Below, piece by piece: positions 1,560 to 24,900 of a stretch of 43,145 nucleotides of DNA (its first letter is position 1; the number at the start of each line of letters is the position of its first letter). Made by a program: the position numbers and the translations under genes. The DNA comes from a virus. The DNA lies in IMG/VR virus record IMGVR_UViG_3300030333_002164, positions 9,918-53,062 of that record, one strand, 5' to 3'. The notes beneath the pieces were generated by a model. The model worked only from the letters and a program-made list of their open reading frames with translations, searched no databases and was not told where the DNA came from.

Positions 1560-4500
1560 TTATGAGCGAACAGTTGTTTGATAAACAATACTCTTTATTC
1601 GATATTGAGCACCTGCATTACCATTTACTACTTCGCCACCTAAAACTGCTTGTGCTTTAGCACCATTTCCTGTGCTATCACCAGCAGCATTTGTGAAAGT
1701 TATTGTTGGATGGGTATTATATGACCCATCAATTGTCTGTTGTATACCATATCCACCATTAGTAATAGTGATAGAACCAACTTGGTCTCCAGCAGTAGTT
1801 AAAACTGCGGTTCCTGTTGCTTGTATATCTCCAGTATTTTCTATTGTTACTGTTGGAGCAGCAGTATAGTTTACTCCAGCATCTTGAATTATAAAATCAA
1901 CAATTGTACTATCGTGTGAAAATTCATACAAATAACCAGCAATACCAACATTAATATTGCCTGTATTATATGGAACGATATCCTTAACCGTTAATACTGA
2001 TGTTACTGGATTCCATGAAACACAAGTTCCCCTAACACCAGAAGTAGCACCAGTAACTATTTCATCAACACCAAAGTTCAAACCATTACCTACATTTGGA
2101 TCAAGATATAGGTCTACAAGAGCAGTATGTCCTACACCTGCACTCAATCCACCTGCCTCAGTAACTGTTGCATATTTAAATGGTATATCAGCATCCTTAA
2201 TATTGTCTCCAACTTGGAATAAAGTAGTGTTCTGACCACCAAGAGTCTCTTCAATACCATATAACGAATTATAGATACCACCGTCAAGACTAATTTGATT
2301 AAGGAAATCTGTACCAGTATTTACCAAATCTGGAATTCCATCACCAGCACCATCATTTTCTGCAATATCCTGGAATGCTTTATCTTGTAAAGATGATATT
2401 GGTACTGTTAAAGTGACAATATTATTACCAACAGAATCTATAATGACGTGAGGATCAAATCCTGAAGGAGCAGATGCAGCAACACCAGCATCGAACTGTA
2501 CAATAGCATCTTCAGTAGATGGTATACCACCATCAATAAATGCTAATTCATCAACCTCAAATGTTACTAAGAGTGCTCTAGTAGCAGGATCCCAATCATA
2601 TACTTTAGCAACCTTATTACCAGCATTCTCAACTTTTCTAATTACCCTATCACCAACATTAAACTTATAGTTTGAAGTACCATCAGATGCATTCTGTCCT
2701 GCATCAAGAATAACTCTCTGATCATAATTAAAGTTTACTCCTCTTGTTAAACCAGTAAACTTACCTTCTGCTTTAGAAGTATATGTAATAGTCTCTGTAT
2801 TAACAATAATACTTCCTGAACCTGGATAAGCAGAAGTAGAGTCAACATAAATTTCTGTATCTGCTGCACCAACATCCTTAACAAGACCAGTTAAGAAGTT
2901 TGGTACTGAGTTAAATGCCTGTCTTGCTCTTGTCTTACGTTTTAATTGAACTAACTTAGTAAAGATTATATTTGGAGCACCAGTATATCCGCTACCTGGA
3001 TCAGTAATAGTAATTCCAGTAACAGCACCTTGAGAAACTTGAGCAGTTGCTTTAGCACCAATACCACCTCCACCATTAATTAAAATATAAGGAGGTTCCT
3101 GATAAAATTCACCAGGATCTACAATAGAAATATTTGTAACCTTACCAAGAGTATCAATTTCAGCAGCACCTTGAGCACCTTGTCCACCACCACCTTCAAA
3201 TATAAGTGTTGGAGGAGTTGCATAACTTCTACCAGTAGCAAGTAACGAAAGACCAGTAACTGTCTGTACAGTAGGAGTTCCTACAGCACCAGTACCTTCA
3301 CCACCAAGAATCTTTGCTTGAGCAGGACCATAATAATTATCACCCTTTTGACTCATCGTAATATAAGCAATCTGACCAGGATTATCAGTACTTAAAACAA
3401 CATCACCTTCTGCACCCTCTGGGAATACTGTAACAGGAGCAGGTAATGTATCTCCTTCAAATAAAGGAACTCCATAAAATCTAGGACCAACTGCATATGG
3501 GAAAGCAGGAGCACCACTACCATCTTCACACATATAATATGCATAAGTTCCATTAGGATACTCAGGAGTTACACCAAACTTACCGTTATAAGCATCAAGA
3601 GTACGATTAGAAACTGCTGTATCCCAAATATAATCTTGTACAAGATCACCCATAATATATCCATCTTGGACTGTTCTAACTCCATGTCCAGATGTTGTAT
3701 AAGCAAACGTATATAATGCAGCAGGAGCATTTACAGGAACTGTAAATCTTAATTCTCTTGAAGTTGCACCATTAAATCCACTTAAATATGAAGCATAAGT
3801 TACTTCAGAACCATCGATATAATATTTTGCACCTTGAGACCAAACTTTTGCAGTATCACCAATAACTACTGGATCAACACCGTGCCAACCATCTTCTATT
3901 GAACTAATTAAAAGTTGTTGACTAAGATTACTAGCATCATTTTGTTGGAAAACATATGTCTTACCTCTTTCCAAATTCAAGAATGATGGTGTAGATCCAT
4001 CATATAAAAACTTACCATTAGATACAGTAACAACATAAGTGACAGTTGATGCAGTAACAGCAGGTGGTCTAGATCCATCAATCTCAACACCACTTTTTAA
4101 TCTAAATCCAGATACTTCTCTAGCAACTGTACCATCTGCCTTATATCCATAAGGTCCGTAAATTGGATATCCATCATAGGACATACCCAATATCTTAGAA
4201 TGTCCATCTACATGTCTTGAATAATCAATCGTATTTGGATCATTTGCATCTGATTGATAATATCCAGTAACATAATAATCATTTGTTGGAGCAGTATTAT
4301 CAATTGTTGAATCGAAACTAATATATCCTTCATCTCCAGCATACCCAGACATATATCTGTGATGCTTACAATAATAGTAAATACGATTACTCTCATCCGC
4401 ATTCATTATGAATAACGGTTGGAATTCATTTTCGTAATCTGTAGATGGTGCTTGACTTACACCTGTACTATTATAATAAAGAGTACCACCATTTAATAAA

Positions 4501-5729
4501 CCATCAGCAGTTGTACTAAACTGCATAGGATGACCATTAGGATGAGTACCAGTAGCCTGATTAGTACTATGTGCTTGATTCCAAATAATTAAATAATTTC
4601 TCTGAACCTTAATGTCTTGTGGTGCAAAGTAATATTGACCTGAAACAAATGGACCAAACTCTGTAGCATCTGTACCAAAGTCAATATAAAAAATACCGTT
4701 AGTTAAAAGAACAGGTGTATCAGATACTTTAAAACTAAATCCTGTAGATCCTAAAAATAGATCATTTTCTGCAAAACTACCTGTTGTCTGTCTTAGATAT
4801 ACTCTTGTAACTATACCACTTCCATTTCTAACAACCTTAGTAACTTCCCCTTTACCAGTACCAGATATTTCATCTACAACTCTACCAACTTCAATTTGTC
4901 CCAATGTTTCATCAACACCAGTAACATTAAGCATTATATTATCAAATTCTACTTTAATATTCCAAGTAAACTGTCTTAACTTACCCCATTCAAATACACC
5001 GTTAGTATCGTCCCATTCACTTATTAGTCTACTTGATTGATAGTAATAAGTACCATTTTCTGTAACAGCATCTGCTGAGTTATTATTCTTAATATAAGGA
5101 TATTTTACTGTATCAATAGCAAATCCTGGAGGTGGACTTCCATCTTGTCCCCATTCTGGAGTATGCAGCAAAACTCCGTTTGCCATAATACCCATAACCT
5201 TATCTGGTTGATCTTCTCTGGTACCAGGATTAGGAACGTCTTTACCGCCTCTGTATATAAATTGCTGATTAAAATTTCTATCATTTAGAGGTCCACCACT
5301 AGGAACTCTTTCAGTATCAATAATTGTTGGTTTGGGATCATTATCAGATACTATTCTTAATCTATCAGTTACACCATCAAATGTTGCTGTAGTAGGACTA
5401 TTTGGGTGTGTCTGCCAAATTCTTTTAATGTCAAATGAATTGACTACATTAGGAGTTTCTTGTTCTGGAATTATTTGAAGTCTTAAAGGATCATATCCTT
5501 TACCTCTATTCAGAACCCTAACATGTATAATCTTTCCCGAATCTTCATCAATAATAGGATAAAGGAGTGCATCTTCATCAGGAGTACCACATCCAGTTAT
5601 TGTTAGACGTGGAGGATCAGCAGGGTCGTATCCTGTACCCCCGTTTGTAACTTTAACTGCCCTTACACCAAATATTTCATCGAAAATTGGTTCAATAATG
5701 GCTCCAGATCCAGGTACTGTCCTTGTCAT
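1560..5729 (-). CDS. Large virion structural protein with YHYH, cupredoxin-like and GSGYT modules (1,389 aa)
   Basis: Likely baseplate-attached or fibre-like protein, between the 408-aa fibre-like gene (5-base gap) and gp8. The N-terminus carries a GGTGYD module (about residue 30). A cupredoxin-like segment follows at about 360-475, with H400 in GHPMQF and C454, H457 and M460 in [10 protein letters not shown], the ligand pattern of type-1 copper proteins. A YHYH domain begins with [11 protein letters not shown] (about 517-527) and resumes with [17 protein letters not shown] at about 710. Between the halves is a second cupredoxin-like segment ([16 protein letters not shown]) without Cys and His ligands. 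GGTGYT-type repeats fill about 820-930, and further ones close the C-terminus. No enzyme active site was recognised. Virion role is inferred from context and modules; copper binding is untested. Confidence 0.75.
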
Positions 5730-5734
5730 CTATA

Positions 5735-6961
5735 TCAACTTACAACGTTAATTGTTCCTTGCATCGCAGCATGGAGTGTACATTGATAATAAAGAGTGGT
5801 CGGAGCATCCATAGGGACAGTCCAATAAAGAACAGTAGTTCCACTACCACTTTGTCCAGTTGTGTAAGGAGTACCACTTAAACCTTGAGTACTTTGAATT
5901 CTGAAAGGATGAGCACCACCTTGAACACTATTGTCAAAAGCATACGTAAACCCTCTATGTACATAGATGGTTGGGTCATTTGTTGCTGCAGAAAAGCCTG
6001 GTCCATTAAATGTGAAATCAGACGATCCATTAGCATTTATTTCCCACCAAGTAATCGGACTACGTACTATAGTCCAACTAGTTCCATTATAAAACAGCGA
6101 ATCACCTTGAGTAATACCAGTAACATCTGTATCTGTTAAAGCAGCAAATGTTGTAGTTATTGTTCCATCAAAATTAACTGTTAATGTATCACCAGAAACA
6201 GCAGTACTGATATTTGTACCACCTGCAATAGTTAATGTATCTGATTGACTATTAGCAGTTGTAGATCCTGCATCAGAAGAAACTGTAGCAAATAAGTTAA
6301 TAGAGGATATACCAGAATCATCAGCAGCAGGAACCCACTTACTAGAAGCAGAACTCCATTTTAAAACTTGATTATTTGTAGGTGCAGCAGTTGTTGTATC
6401 AACGTCTGCTAAAAGATCAATACTTGAATATTGTGTTGCTATTTTTGCCTGTACATCTCCAGCACCACCAGCAGTAATATTGATATTTACATATGGATTA
6501 TCATCACCATCAACTGTGAAAAAATATCCTGTATATGTTGCTGCAGTAGGTGCGGATCCTAATGCGGAATATTCGTTTTTATATTTAACTTTAGTCGGCA
6601 TATCAATGGTATTATCAGTACCATTAAATGTGCTAGTTGTAGTTCCATTAGAAATAGTTACATTACCTGTTCCATTCGGTGCAATAACTATATTTCCATT
6701 AGAACTTGAAATGATAGAATTTCCATTAACATCCAATCCAGCCGTCAAATTAGTATAGTCTGACGGTAAGAAAGTTGATCCATTATAACGTAGTACTTGA
6801 CCAACAGCAGGGTTAGTAACACTAACAGTCAAACTAGAACCGTTTCCGATTGCAGTATAGAGTTCATTAAAATTGTCATTAATTTTATCGCCACCACCTC
6901 GCAGGGTATCCCCTGTGTTGTCGTTAGCCGTTGAACCTAAATTTAGAGCTTGCTTAGCCAT
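5735..6961 (-). CDS. Fibre-like virion protein with C-terminal cupredoxin-like domain (408 aa)
   Basis: The N-terminus has TANDNTGDTLRGGGDKINDN, followed by FNELY: the kind of short adapter seen at the start of many phage fibre proteins. The middle is Thr/Ser/Gly/Asn-rich with repeated segments such as QVLRYNGSTF and QVLKWSSASSKWVP, typical of beta-structured fibre shafts. The C-terminal 100 residues look like a cupredoxin: RGFTYAFDN, GGAHPFRI (H351), YWTVPMDAPTTLYYQC (C394), then H397 and M400, ending GTINVVS. The gene begins its own late unit, with CATAAATA at 6982-6989, and is followed after 5 bases by the 1,389-aa gene. It sits where T4 carries genes 9-12 relatives, but no specific T4 homologue was recognised. 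A host-binding or spike role is inference. Confidence 0.75.
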   Translation of the reverse strand: MAKQALNLGSTANDNTGDTLRGGGDKINDNFNELYTAIGNGSSLTVSVTNPAVGQVLRYNGSTFLPSDYTNLTAGLDVNGNSIISSSNGNIVIAPNGTGNVTISNGTTTSTFNGTDNTIDMPTKVKYKNEYSALGSAPTAATYTGYFFTVDGDDNPYVNINITAGGAGDVQAKIATQYSSIDLLADVDTTTAAPTNNQVLKWSSASSKWVPAADDSGISSINLFATVSSDAGSTTANSQSDTLTIAGGTNISTAVSGDTLTVNFDGTITTTFAALTDTDVTGITQGDSLFYNGTSWTIVRSPITWWEINANGSSDFTFNGPGFSAATNDPTIYVHRGFTYAFDNSVQGGAHPFRIQSTQGLSGTPYTTGQSGSGTTVLYWTVPMDAPTTLYYQCTLHAAMQGTINVVS

Positions 6962-21900: not shown

Positions 21901-24900
21901 TGTTGACGACCTGTTCCAGCGTTAACGAAGGAAAGTGCATCACCAAGAGCAGCGTTAGATGCAGTAATAGCAAGTTTTAACTGATCATCTTCTAATGAAT
22001 TAGCAGATCCAGAAATTGCATAGTAAGTAGTAGTTGAATTTAATCTACCTGTTGCACCAGCAGCAAGAGGATATTCAGCACCATCTCCAGTATCTACTAC
22101 ATTAAGAGTAACTTCTGATCCATTAACAATACCGTGAGGATAAGCAAATTGTAATAAACCTAAGTCAAGGTTAACAACATAGTTAAATGATGATCTTAGA
22201 CTTACTGTTGGTGTAGAAGAATATCCAGCACCAGGATCCTTAACTATAATTGTATCCAGACGACCATTCTTGATACTTGCCTCAGCAATAGCACCAGATC
22301 CACCACCACCTGTAATAACTACAGCAGGTGCTAATGAATATCCAGAACCTGGATTGGTTACTGTAATACTTGAAAGAATACTTGTACTTGTTAATTGGCA
22401 GTTAAGTGGGAATGTAATCTCAGGACGTAAAGTATAATCATGAGGATAATCATAACCAAAGTTATTATTCTTAAGTTTCTTAATCTTACCAACTTTATCA
22501 CCTTTAGTGAATATAGATGCCTGAGAACCAGCAGAAGGAATAACAACCTCTAATTCAGCACCAGATCCAGTTAAACCAGCACCAAGAATACCAGGAATTG
22601 CTTCAACATCTATAGTAGCAGTTGTATATCCTTTACCTGGAGAAGTAACTTCAACTTTTTGTATTTGACCAGGAATAGTTACACCTTCATCATCTTGTCC
22701 GTCTGCTACAGTAATAGCAACTAAACCACCTTCACCATCTCCAGCAATAGGGACAGCATTATATTGTCCAACTGCATATTCAGTTCCTGGAGAATTAATT
22801 GCAACTCTTTCAATAATTCTAGTTGATACAATATTAGTTACAATTGGTAGTTTTGTATAGAAACCACCTGGGTTAACAATACGAATATTATTAATAGCAC
22901 CAACTGCTTTTACAGAACTTGTACTATATGATGCAGTTGAAACTTGAGCATCACCTTCTGGTTCATTAAGTAGAGGGAATTTAAATATATCTGGTCCTTT
23001 AGTAATAGTTTCTCCAGCAGTACTAGAAATAGCAAATGTACCCTTATATGGAGAATCTACAACATCTAAGTAACTACCAGGAATTACAGGAGAATCACTA
23101 CCAGTTCTAGAAGGATCAAAATAGTATGAAATATTAGTTACAACAGTATCATCTACTTTTAACTTAACTGTTGGATTAGGTTGCCCTTCACCAGTTACAC
23201 CAGGAGTTCCAACTCTTTCAATAGAGTTAAATGAATATTCTAGTTTATAAAGATTATCCTTAGAGAATGATAAGTTTCCACCAAGAAGTGAGGAGTGACT
23301 TAGGTCAAACAAGTATTGATGACCATAATACATCTTCAAGACAGGAGACTTAACAAATATATTGACATTAGCAGCAGTAGTAGCAGGTTCTGTTATTGCT
23401 GCTTGTGGTAATTTATAGGTAAATTCTAATGGACTTACAACTGTATCAATTGGGAATGCACCATCATATTCATCATAAACAACTGAATCAACAGTCTGTG
23501 ATGGATTTCCATCAACATAGATCATCTCACCAGCAGATAGATAATGATTTGTTCCTGTAATTACATAAACTTCATTACTATTAGCAACTGCAGTTACTTG
23601 AAGAATCTTCTTAAGAGTAGTAATTAAACTAATCTTAAGTACACCAGTTAGTCCAGTAATCTGAGCAGTACTATAAGATGCATTAAATGTTATATCACCA
23701 GAATTGATAGTAATAACAGATCCAACAATATATGCAGATCCACCAGCAACTTCATCAATTCTTACAGAATAATCATCATCAGAATATGGTTTGAACTTAG
23801 CAAAACTATCAAGATCTCCTGTGCAAGTTGCTATTGTAAAGGTTGCATTTGCACCACCAGTAGTAATAGTAACTACATCACCAATTTTATAACCTGATCC
23901 TGGAGTATCAATTGAAACAGAAGAGACATTACCACCAGAAGCAGTAAAGTCAACAGTTAGTCCTGTTCCAGATCCATTAGTTGTTGTAGCAACATTATCA
24001 CCTGTATTTGCATAACCAGTACCCGCAGCAGTTAAAGAACTTAAGGTTGCAGGAATATCTGCAACAGTACCATCTAGATCATAATCATCAAGATCTATAT
24101 CAAATGTTCCAGGAGTTGTATTATCAACCTGAGCAAATGTATATCCTACAATTTCATTAATATCAGCAGGAATAGGACCAACAATCTTATAAGTAGATTG
24201 CTCATTAAACTGTTCTGTTATTAATTGACCTGTATTAAGATCATTACTCCATGCATTATTATTAACAGCAAGATATATCTTATTATTAACAGTATCTTTT
24301 CTAATAATATAACCACTATTAACAAATGATCCTGAATCGTTGTTTAATACTAACTTCGTACCAACTGTAAAGTTAAATGCCTGATTGATTGTCAATTCTT
24401 GAACATTATCAATCTTAACTGTATTTGTAACCTTAAAGTAATACCTATCTTTAACTACAGCATTTACTGATAATTTTTGAGAACCAGGAGAAGGTACAGT
24501 TGCTGTTCTAGAACCCCAAATATCATTAGTATATGTTAATGTCTGAGTATCCTGTGACATCGTTGTAGTAGTATCATCAAAGTCTAATGACTGGAATCCT
24601 GCTTCACCAAGAGCATATCCAACATTAGCAATAGTTAATACAGATCCAGTTACAGGAGTTACAGCAGTTCTCTTGAATCCTATTTGTGTATTAGTTTGTA
24701 ATCCTTTATCCCCAAGTCTAGTAGCATCAGCATTCTTATCTACTTTTAAACCCCAAGCAACATAGTCAATATAATCATATCGATTTAAATTGGTAGTAAA
24801 CCAAGCATCATCAGTCCAATCATAGGTAAATGCATAAGTTGCAACTGGAGGTAATGTTGCAATATCAGTAGGAACTGTAGGAACTACAGCTCTATTACGT

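Follow-up and report, generated by a model that had tools for sequence, protein, structure and literature searches.

In bacteriophage T4, each tail has 18 copies of gp9, a trimer whose C-terminal domain is the coaxial attachment site of the long tail fibre; when the baseplate fires, gp9 is brought against gp10 (both according to an excerpt of PMC3004832). Among cyanophages, petE has been reported in S-RSM4, Syn9 and P-SSM2 (excerpt of PMC2984593). Here we describe a gp9 gene of a T4-like cyanophage. The window, i.e., the whole stretch of 43,145 nucleotides that was analyzed, is contained in a virus record of 53,062 bases. The best overall explanation of our data, which we hold to be probable, is that the gene encodes a gp9 socket with a type-1-copper cupredoxin domain, the ligand loop of which has the length of that of amicyanin.

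Identity and Setting of the gp9 Gene

Baseplate wedge genes of a T4-like cyanophage are clustered in the window, namely a gp25-type gene, a gp6 homologue, a virion protein of 8384 aa, gp9 and a gp10-position gene. The gp9 gene adjoins the gp10-position gene, and the gp25- and gp6-type wedge genes are located upstream.

5735..6961, minus strand: gp9 homologue, baseplate wedge / long-tail-fibre connector, 408 aa (phrog_677, Pfam T4_gp9_10_N)
6659..6955, minus strand: N-terminal T4 gp9/gp10-like region, residues 3-101 (PF07880; PDB phmmer)

The family phrog_677 ("baseplate wedge tail fiber protein connector") was matched along the entire 408-aa protein (E 8.1e-200), and Pfam T4_gp9_10_N (PF07880) matched residues 3-101 above the gathering score (E 2.1e-9). 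A phmmer search of the PDB with the same protein returned T4 gp10 (E 7.2e-6) and T4 gp9 (E 4.8e-5). It also matched 390 phage records, mostly of Synechococcus and Prochlorococcus phages, with a coverage of at least 80% in 287 of them; gp9 of S-SSM5 stood at 78% in this comparison. Taken together, these PHROG, Pfam, PDB and phage-record matches identify the protein as a gp9 socket and not as a fibre tip. An earlier note on this DNA had seen in it a cyanophage fibre protein with a metal-binding tip. The cyanophage origin was borne out by the PHROG and phage-record matches as well as by the wedge cluster, whereas the identity as a fibre or fibre tip had to be given up, being ruled out by the matches to phrog_677, T4_gp9_10_N, T4 gp9/gp10 and phage gp9. 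Thus, judged from its sequence relatives, the 408-aa protein of this T4-like cyanophage is homologous to gp9 and is the predicted socket of the long tail fibre. The model of full-length gp9 was poor (pLDDT 59.5), and the C-terminal domain is therefore placed in the trimer by analogy with T4.

Fold of the C-Terminal Domain

5738..6046, minus strand: C-terminal cupredoxin domain, residues 306-408 (~103 aa), from profiles and predicted structure

According to both sequence profiles and structure prediction, residues 306-408 of gp9 are a separate domain with a cupredoxin fold. A profile of 13 copies of the domain found 93 PDB sequences at E<=1, and 60/60 among the matches listed were cupredoxin-type copper proteins. 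With a profile built on 52 phage and MAG copies, 48 PDB matches were obtained at E<=0.01, all 48 of them copper proteins, including nitrite reductases, plastocyanins, amicyanins (amicyanin at E 1e-4), a pseudoazurin and a multicopper oxidase. Plastocyanin 2plt was matched by this second profile with an E of 7.6e-7 (8.6e-7 for the stretch).

The model of gp9 residues 296-408 presented nine strands (pLDDT 94.6, pTM 0.86). Foldseek with this model gave 15 PDB matches at E<=0.001, every one a copper protein, and structural comparison likewise gave copper proteins in 50/50 among the matches listed. T4 gp9 is not among the matches listed for either comparison, an absence that does not speak against a relation to its C-terminal domain. 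The best structural match in the PDB was the first domain of the Hyphomicrobium nitrite reductase 2dv6 (Z 10.9, rmsd 2.0 A, 92 residues), followed by rusticyanin 2cal (Z 9.5, 2.6 A, 94 residues, ~22% identity). The domain model, Foldseek, the structural comparison and the PDB profiles thus agree with the earlier claim that the C-terminal ~100 residues are cupredoxin-like.

Searched against Pfam, 5/13 copies matched PF00127 (best E 0.0011) and 5/13 matched PF25489; the gp9 domain alone gave just PF25489, with 17.3 bits, under the cut-off of 27. We encountered no Pfam or PHROG entry naming a cupredoxin in gp9 or gp10 above the curated cut-off. The domain model also matched "Beta-sandwich proteins" of pithovirus and marseillevirus in BFVD (A0A481Z6J5, A0A481YWX9, A0A481Z7Q7), with a TM of 0.65-0.72 by query length.

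Putative Ligand Residues and Their Conservation

5909..5911, minus strand: H351, first His ligand (putative), kept in 81/81 homologues
5780..5782, minus strand: C394, Cys ligand (putative), sole Cys of the gp9 protein, kept in 81/81
5771..5773, minus strand: H397, second His ligand (putative), kept in 81/81
5762..5764, minus strand: M400, axial Met ligand (putative), kept in 81/81

Read back from the window at 5735-6961 on the minus strand, H351, C394, H397 and M400 stand in the order and with the C-x2-H-x2-M spacing that had been described before. This spacing had been ascribed to small blue copper proteins as a class. The set is indeed intact; more precisely, C-x2-H-x2-M is the loop length of amicyanin, not that of plastocyanin or pseudoazurin. 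In the HMM alignment with 2plt, the phage H, C, H and M are opposite the H, C, H and M of plastocyanin, the ligand loop of which is two residues longer. The motif C-x2-H-x2-M was found three times in the 86,286 six-frame residues of the window, in gp9, in gp10 and in one plus-strand frame near there that is interrupted by stops. A chance motif is ruled out by this rarity and by the 48/48 profile matches to copper proteins.

In the domain model, H351 is just ahead of a strand, C394 is at a strand end, and H397 and M400 are in the loop before the last strand. Indirectly, this predicted placement and the superposition on type-1 copper domains are consistent with four ligands lying close together, the other check named in the earlier note. 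The gp9 protein contains three His residues (335, 351, 397), none of them within an HxH, and exactly one Cys is present in 75/81 aligned gp9 homologues.

Conservation of the four residues in homologues had been set beforehand as a check, and all four are invariant in 81/81 gp9 sequences. These sequences come from the window and from the 80 loci that ranked best among 593 relatives, retrieved by scan patterns devoid of ligand residues. Taken alone, this invariance weighs little because the 80 homologues fetched are all at least 71% identical and 37/103 positions of the domain are invariant across the 81 sequences. A hand-picked alignment of 13 copies with 29-54% identity to gp9 (A1, which omitted the degenerate L089 and duplicate L087 copies as well as the long-looped gp10 and L082 copies) contains eight invariant residues, four of which are the ligands. 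When the alignment was enlarged and the degenerate L089 restored (A6), each of the four ligands was found in 62/63 rows. A recent pick-up of a host plastocyanin, with residues not yet lost, is ruled out, as copies only 29-54% identical keep the ligands.

A ligand-masked profile retrieved 555 copies from 344 sources; 478 of the copies have H, C, H and M. Some of the seeds of this search had been obtained with patterns that include ligand residues. A set of 78 distinct, ungapped and unseeded copies, identical sequences being counted once, excludes all 240 seeds, each of the 210 copies from the gp9 scan, the 14 genome copies and the gapped rows. The H/C/H triad was kept in 72/78 of these copies, 67 with M, 3 with Q, 1 with L and 1 with A, and the remaining 6/78 lacked the Cys and the second His together (Fisher p 4e-9, for copies that are not independent). 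In two "-CHM" rows and in the "HCP-" rows, the dash is an alignment gap beside ligand-like residues. Several of the loci L001-L080 and L253-L332 are near-identical, and the counts given are numbers of sequences rather than of independent events. A strict triad, a softer axial ligand and a joint loss, as seen in these alignments, are together characteristic of type-1 copper sites.

Among individual copies, the axial Met is replaced by Gln (3) or Leu (1) in L264, L267 and L261, with H/C/H intact. Type-1 copper sites with an axial Gln occur in stellacyanin, and with Leu in some multicopper oxidases. Also, the gp9-type ORF 3798-5309 of L339 and L340 has the Cys loop CGVPSH, in which the Cys-His spacing is longer than in gp9; the Cys-His spacing of azurin is closer to that of this loop.

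Further Copies in the Window

1560..5729, minus strand: gp10-position baseplate wedge protein, 1389 aa (phrog_708, E 0)
4305..4637, minus strand: gp10 cupredoxin copy 1, aa 365-475, intact H..C454-x2-H457-x2-M460
3681..4055, minus strand: gp10 cupredoxin-like copy 2, aa 559-683, degenerate (ligand-masked profile)
6999-32153, minus strand: 8384-aa virion structural protein, phrog_701 at both ends
23121..23354 (G000:33038-33271), minus strand: weak ligand-less cupredoxin-like stretch in the 8384-aa virion protein (E 0.004)

The gp10-position protein contains two cupredoxin-like stretches and a YHYH domain (Pfam, 2.1e-12), a domain predicted to be a zinc-binding hydrolase (excerpt of PMC7824862). 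Homologues of copy 1 keep H/C/H in 72/72 and M in 70/72. The first His of copy 2 is missing in 60/60 homologous copies, a comparison which tests the first His only, since most of its rows end before the Cys loop, at least in part owing to the limit of the fetched flank. With one intact and one degenerate copy, gp10 provides a built-in control: copy 1 keeps H/C/H and copy 2 lacks the first His, and the fold therefore does not need the ligands. In the 8384-aa protein, the translation of the stretch 23121-23354 contains no ligand set.

Distribution in Other Phages and in Cells

The domain was detected in 341 phage records; among those listed, the more distant ones are 33-52% identical. Syn9 has intact copies of both the gp9 and the gp10 type, and S-SSM5 likewise has an intact domain. 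Its carriers include fibre proteins of the podovirus P-GSP1, of S-SCSM1 and of RN05-S, a wedge protein of S-SKS1, the "T4-like proximal tail fiber" of P-SSM2 and the T7-tail-fibre-like protein L092. The profile of the virion domain also matched a plastocyanin-like frame of 131 aa with a signal-like start in P-SSM2 (L371, E 0.006), which represents a natural positive control.

A search of the genome collection gave 11 matches (L333-L343). The frames of L333, L334, L335 and L339 (L340 is the twin of L339 by frame map) match PHROGs phage families; phrog_677 spans the length of the L334 frame and covers only the N-terminal part of that in L339. In three Bacteroidota contigs (L337:4071-5309, L338:3780-5309, L341:4044-5291), CHRD domains are present in the proteins and the cupredoxin domain is at the protein end. 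These CHRD-linked copies are a possible cellular source of the phage module. Other copies are accompanied by a collagen repeat (L336) or by Ig-like repeats, the latter in an ORF of a Prochlorococcus single-cell contig (L343:3-3170), and one lies in a frame of 1820 aa with no Pfam match in a Flammeovirgaceae MAG (L342:4863-10322). Among plasmids, no match to the domain was obtained at E<=1.

Proposed Copper Site and Alternative Explanations

We are highly confident that the C-terminal domain of gp9 combines a cupredoxin fold with a predicted, binding-competent four-ligand site. As the copper-site domain looks complete and many marine phages have retained its ligands, copper may be carried by the virus particles, and its presence in the mature virion seems likely to us. 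One copper would be bound per gp9 subunit, which, by the stoichiometry of T4, could amount to up to 36 sites per virion (18 in gp9 and 18 in gp10). A virion protein made in the cytoplasm meets little free copper before lysis. The metal may be acquired once the cell has lysed, either from sea water or from the host envelope. Once bound, it would pin the loops at one end of the sandwich, and the pinned loops would harden the socket domain that bears the load of the tail fibre or that makes the contact with gp10, which in T4 occurs at firing. The presence of the module in fibre proteins, including the proximal tail fiber of P-SSM2, suits a role at fibre joints. Nevertheless, a joint-stabilising or coupling role, rather than another, is put forward here as a tentative proposal, with the odds somewhat against it.

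The site could hold Zn or another metal. A structural zinc or mixed-metal site would mean that the scaffold accepts any divalent metal, which in the host cytoplasm would mostly be Zn, and that the metal serves stability alone. Zinc is easier to obtain than copper in the cytoplasm, where virion proteins fold, and a conserved four-ligand set does not tell which metal it holds. However, a strict H/C/H with an axial Met and exchanges to Q, L or A is the type-1 copper pattern, and Met is unusual as a zinc ligand, so that this explanation seems to us unlikely. The residues might also be kept for folding or packing with no metal in the virion, and the invariant neighbours HPFR and YYQCT point to a constrained core around the site. 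Yet copies that have lost the Cys along with the second His are still scored as having this fold, and copy 2 of gp10 has lost the first His throughout; the residues appear dispensable for the fold and are lost together. We consider an apo site very unlikely.

Two further explanations concern the encounter with the host. The earlier note had suggested that a metal-binding tip could stabilise the trimer or bind a metal-containing molecule on the host surface. In the case of metal-assisted recognition, the copper site or its surface would bind a copper-carrying or copper-importing component of the envelope, as a copper counterpart of the Ferrojan Horse. The tip of T4 gp37 binds seven irons via HxH, and an iron Trojan Horse has been proposed for marine phages (excerpt of PMC11705849); moreover, copies of the domain are found in fibre proteins of other phages (S-SCSM1, P-SSM2, P-GSP1, L092). 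Against this, gp9 is a socket of the baseplate and not a tip. The domain is also strongly conserved among phages that infect different hosts, as receptor-binding tips typically are not. We regard such recognition as quite improbable. In the case of a redox or light switch, the reduction of blue copper or its absorption of light would alter the fibre joint and make attachment light- or redox-dependent. P-HM2 fails to adsorb in darkness, whereas P-SSP7 adsorbs (excerpt of PMC7112961). The A6 profile matched P-HM2 (L346) six times, some of these copies showing H..C..H..M, and P-SSP7 (L347) not at all (0 matches). However, the P-HM2 matches sit in frames of 1837-4458 aa and not in a gp9-sized protein, and two phages make no test, myovirus versus podovirus being confounded with the difference. 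In addition, S-PM2 (L345), the adsorption of which is reportedly light-dependent, has just one degenerate stretch and no intact copy by the A6 profile; copper is therefore not required for this tail type. The excerpt of PMC2984593 attributes light-dependent adsorption only to "several marine cyanomyoviruses". A switch of this kind appears to us the least probable of these possibilities.

The preferred reading remains a gp9 socket with a type-1 copper site. Both the fold and the site have long been known. The place in a phage baseplate is the new element, not found in open-access print; in the open-access literature, searched by titles and abstract starts, no paper on cupredoxins in phage tails was found. 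If copper is bound, many cyanophage tails would carry a centre known, in the literature searched, only from electron-transfer proteins and copper enzymes. This would account for a domain family left unnamed in phages by PHROGs and Pfam, and copper would join the iron-phage question in the ocean. Also, C394 and H351 would then offer a one-residue handle on the working of the fibre socket. In a broader and highly speculative scenario, to which we give very little credence, abundant marine phages would bear type-1 copper centres by the tens in their baseplate and fibre joints. The virion, copper-loaded and redox-active, would then sense light or redox state at the cell surface and so set the moment of attachment and of firing, and in the ocean phages would act as a copper ligand in particulate form.

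Comparison with Known Systems

With the small type-1 copper proteins (amicyanin, plastocyanin, rusticyanin, pseudoazurin), the phage domain shares the beta-sandwich and the order H...C-x2-H-xn-M, and amicyanin has the same C-x2-H-x2-M loop as the gp9 domain. In contrast to these proteins, the phage domain has a Pro directly after the first His and, rather than being a free electron carrier, it forms the C-terminal part of a baseplate protein of the virion. Residues 24-132 of 2dv6, the start of the Hyphomicrobium nitrite reductase, which we take to be a type-1 copper domain, are 17% identical to the phage domain and belong to a redox enzyme. Similarly, the product of cyanophage petE is a free metabolic protein, whereas the gp9 domain belongs to the virus particle.

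A metal has likewise been proposed for the tails of marine phages in the Ferrojan Horse hypothesis, alongside iron sites in the fibres of T4 (gp37, HxH) and of Alteromonas phage R22Y (excerpt of PMC11705849). Iron, however, is at HxH pairs of fibre proteins, and gp9 has a type-1 copper fold and no HxH. A further counterpart is T4 gp9, the socket for the long tail fibres, which is like gp9 of the window in its N-terminal region and in its gene being adjacent to gp10. The difference lies at the other end of the protein: the PDB phmmer search gave no match to the C-terminal domain of T4 gp9, and here a predicted cupredoxin stands in its place.
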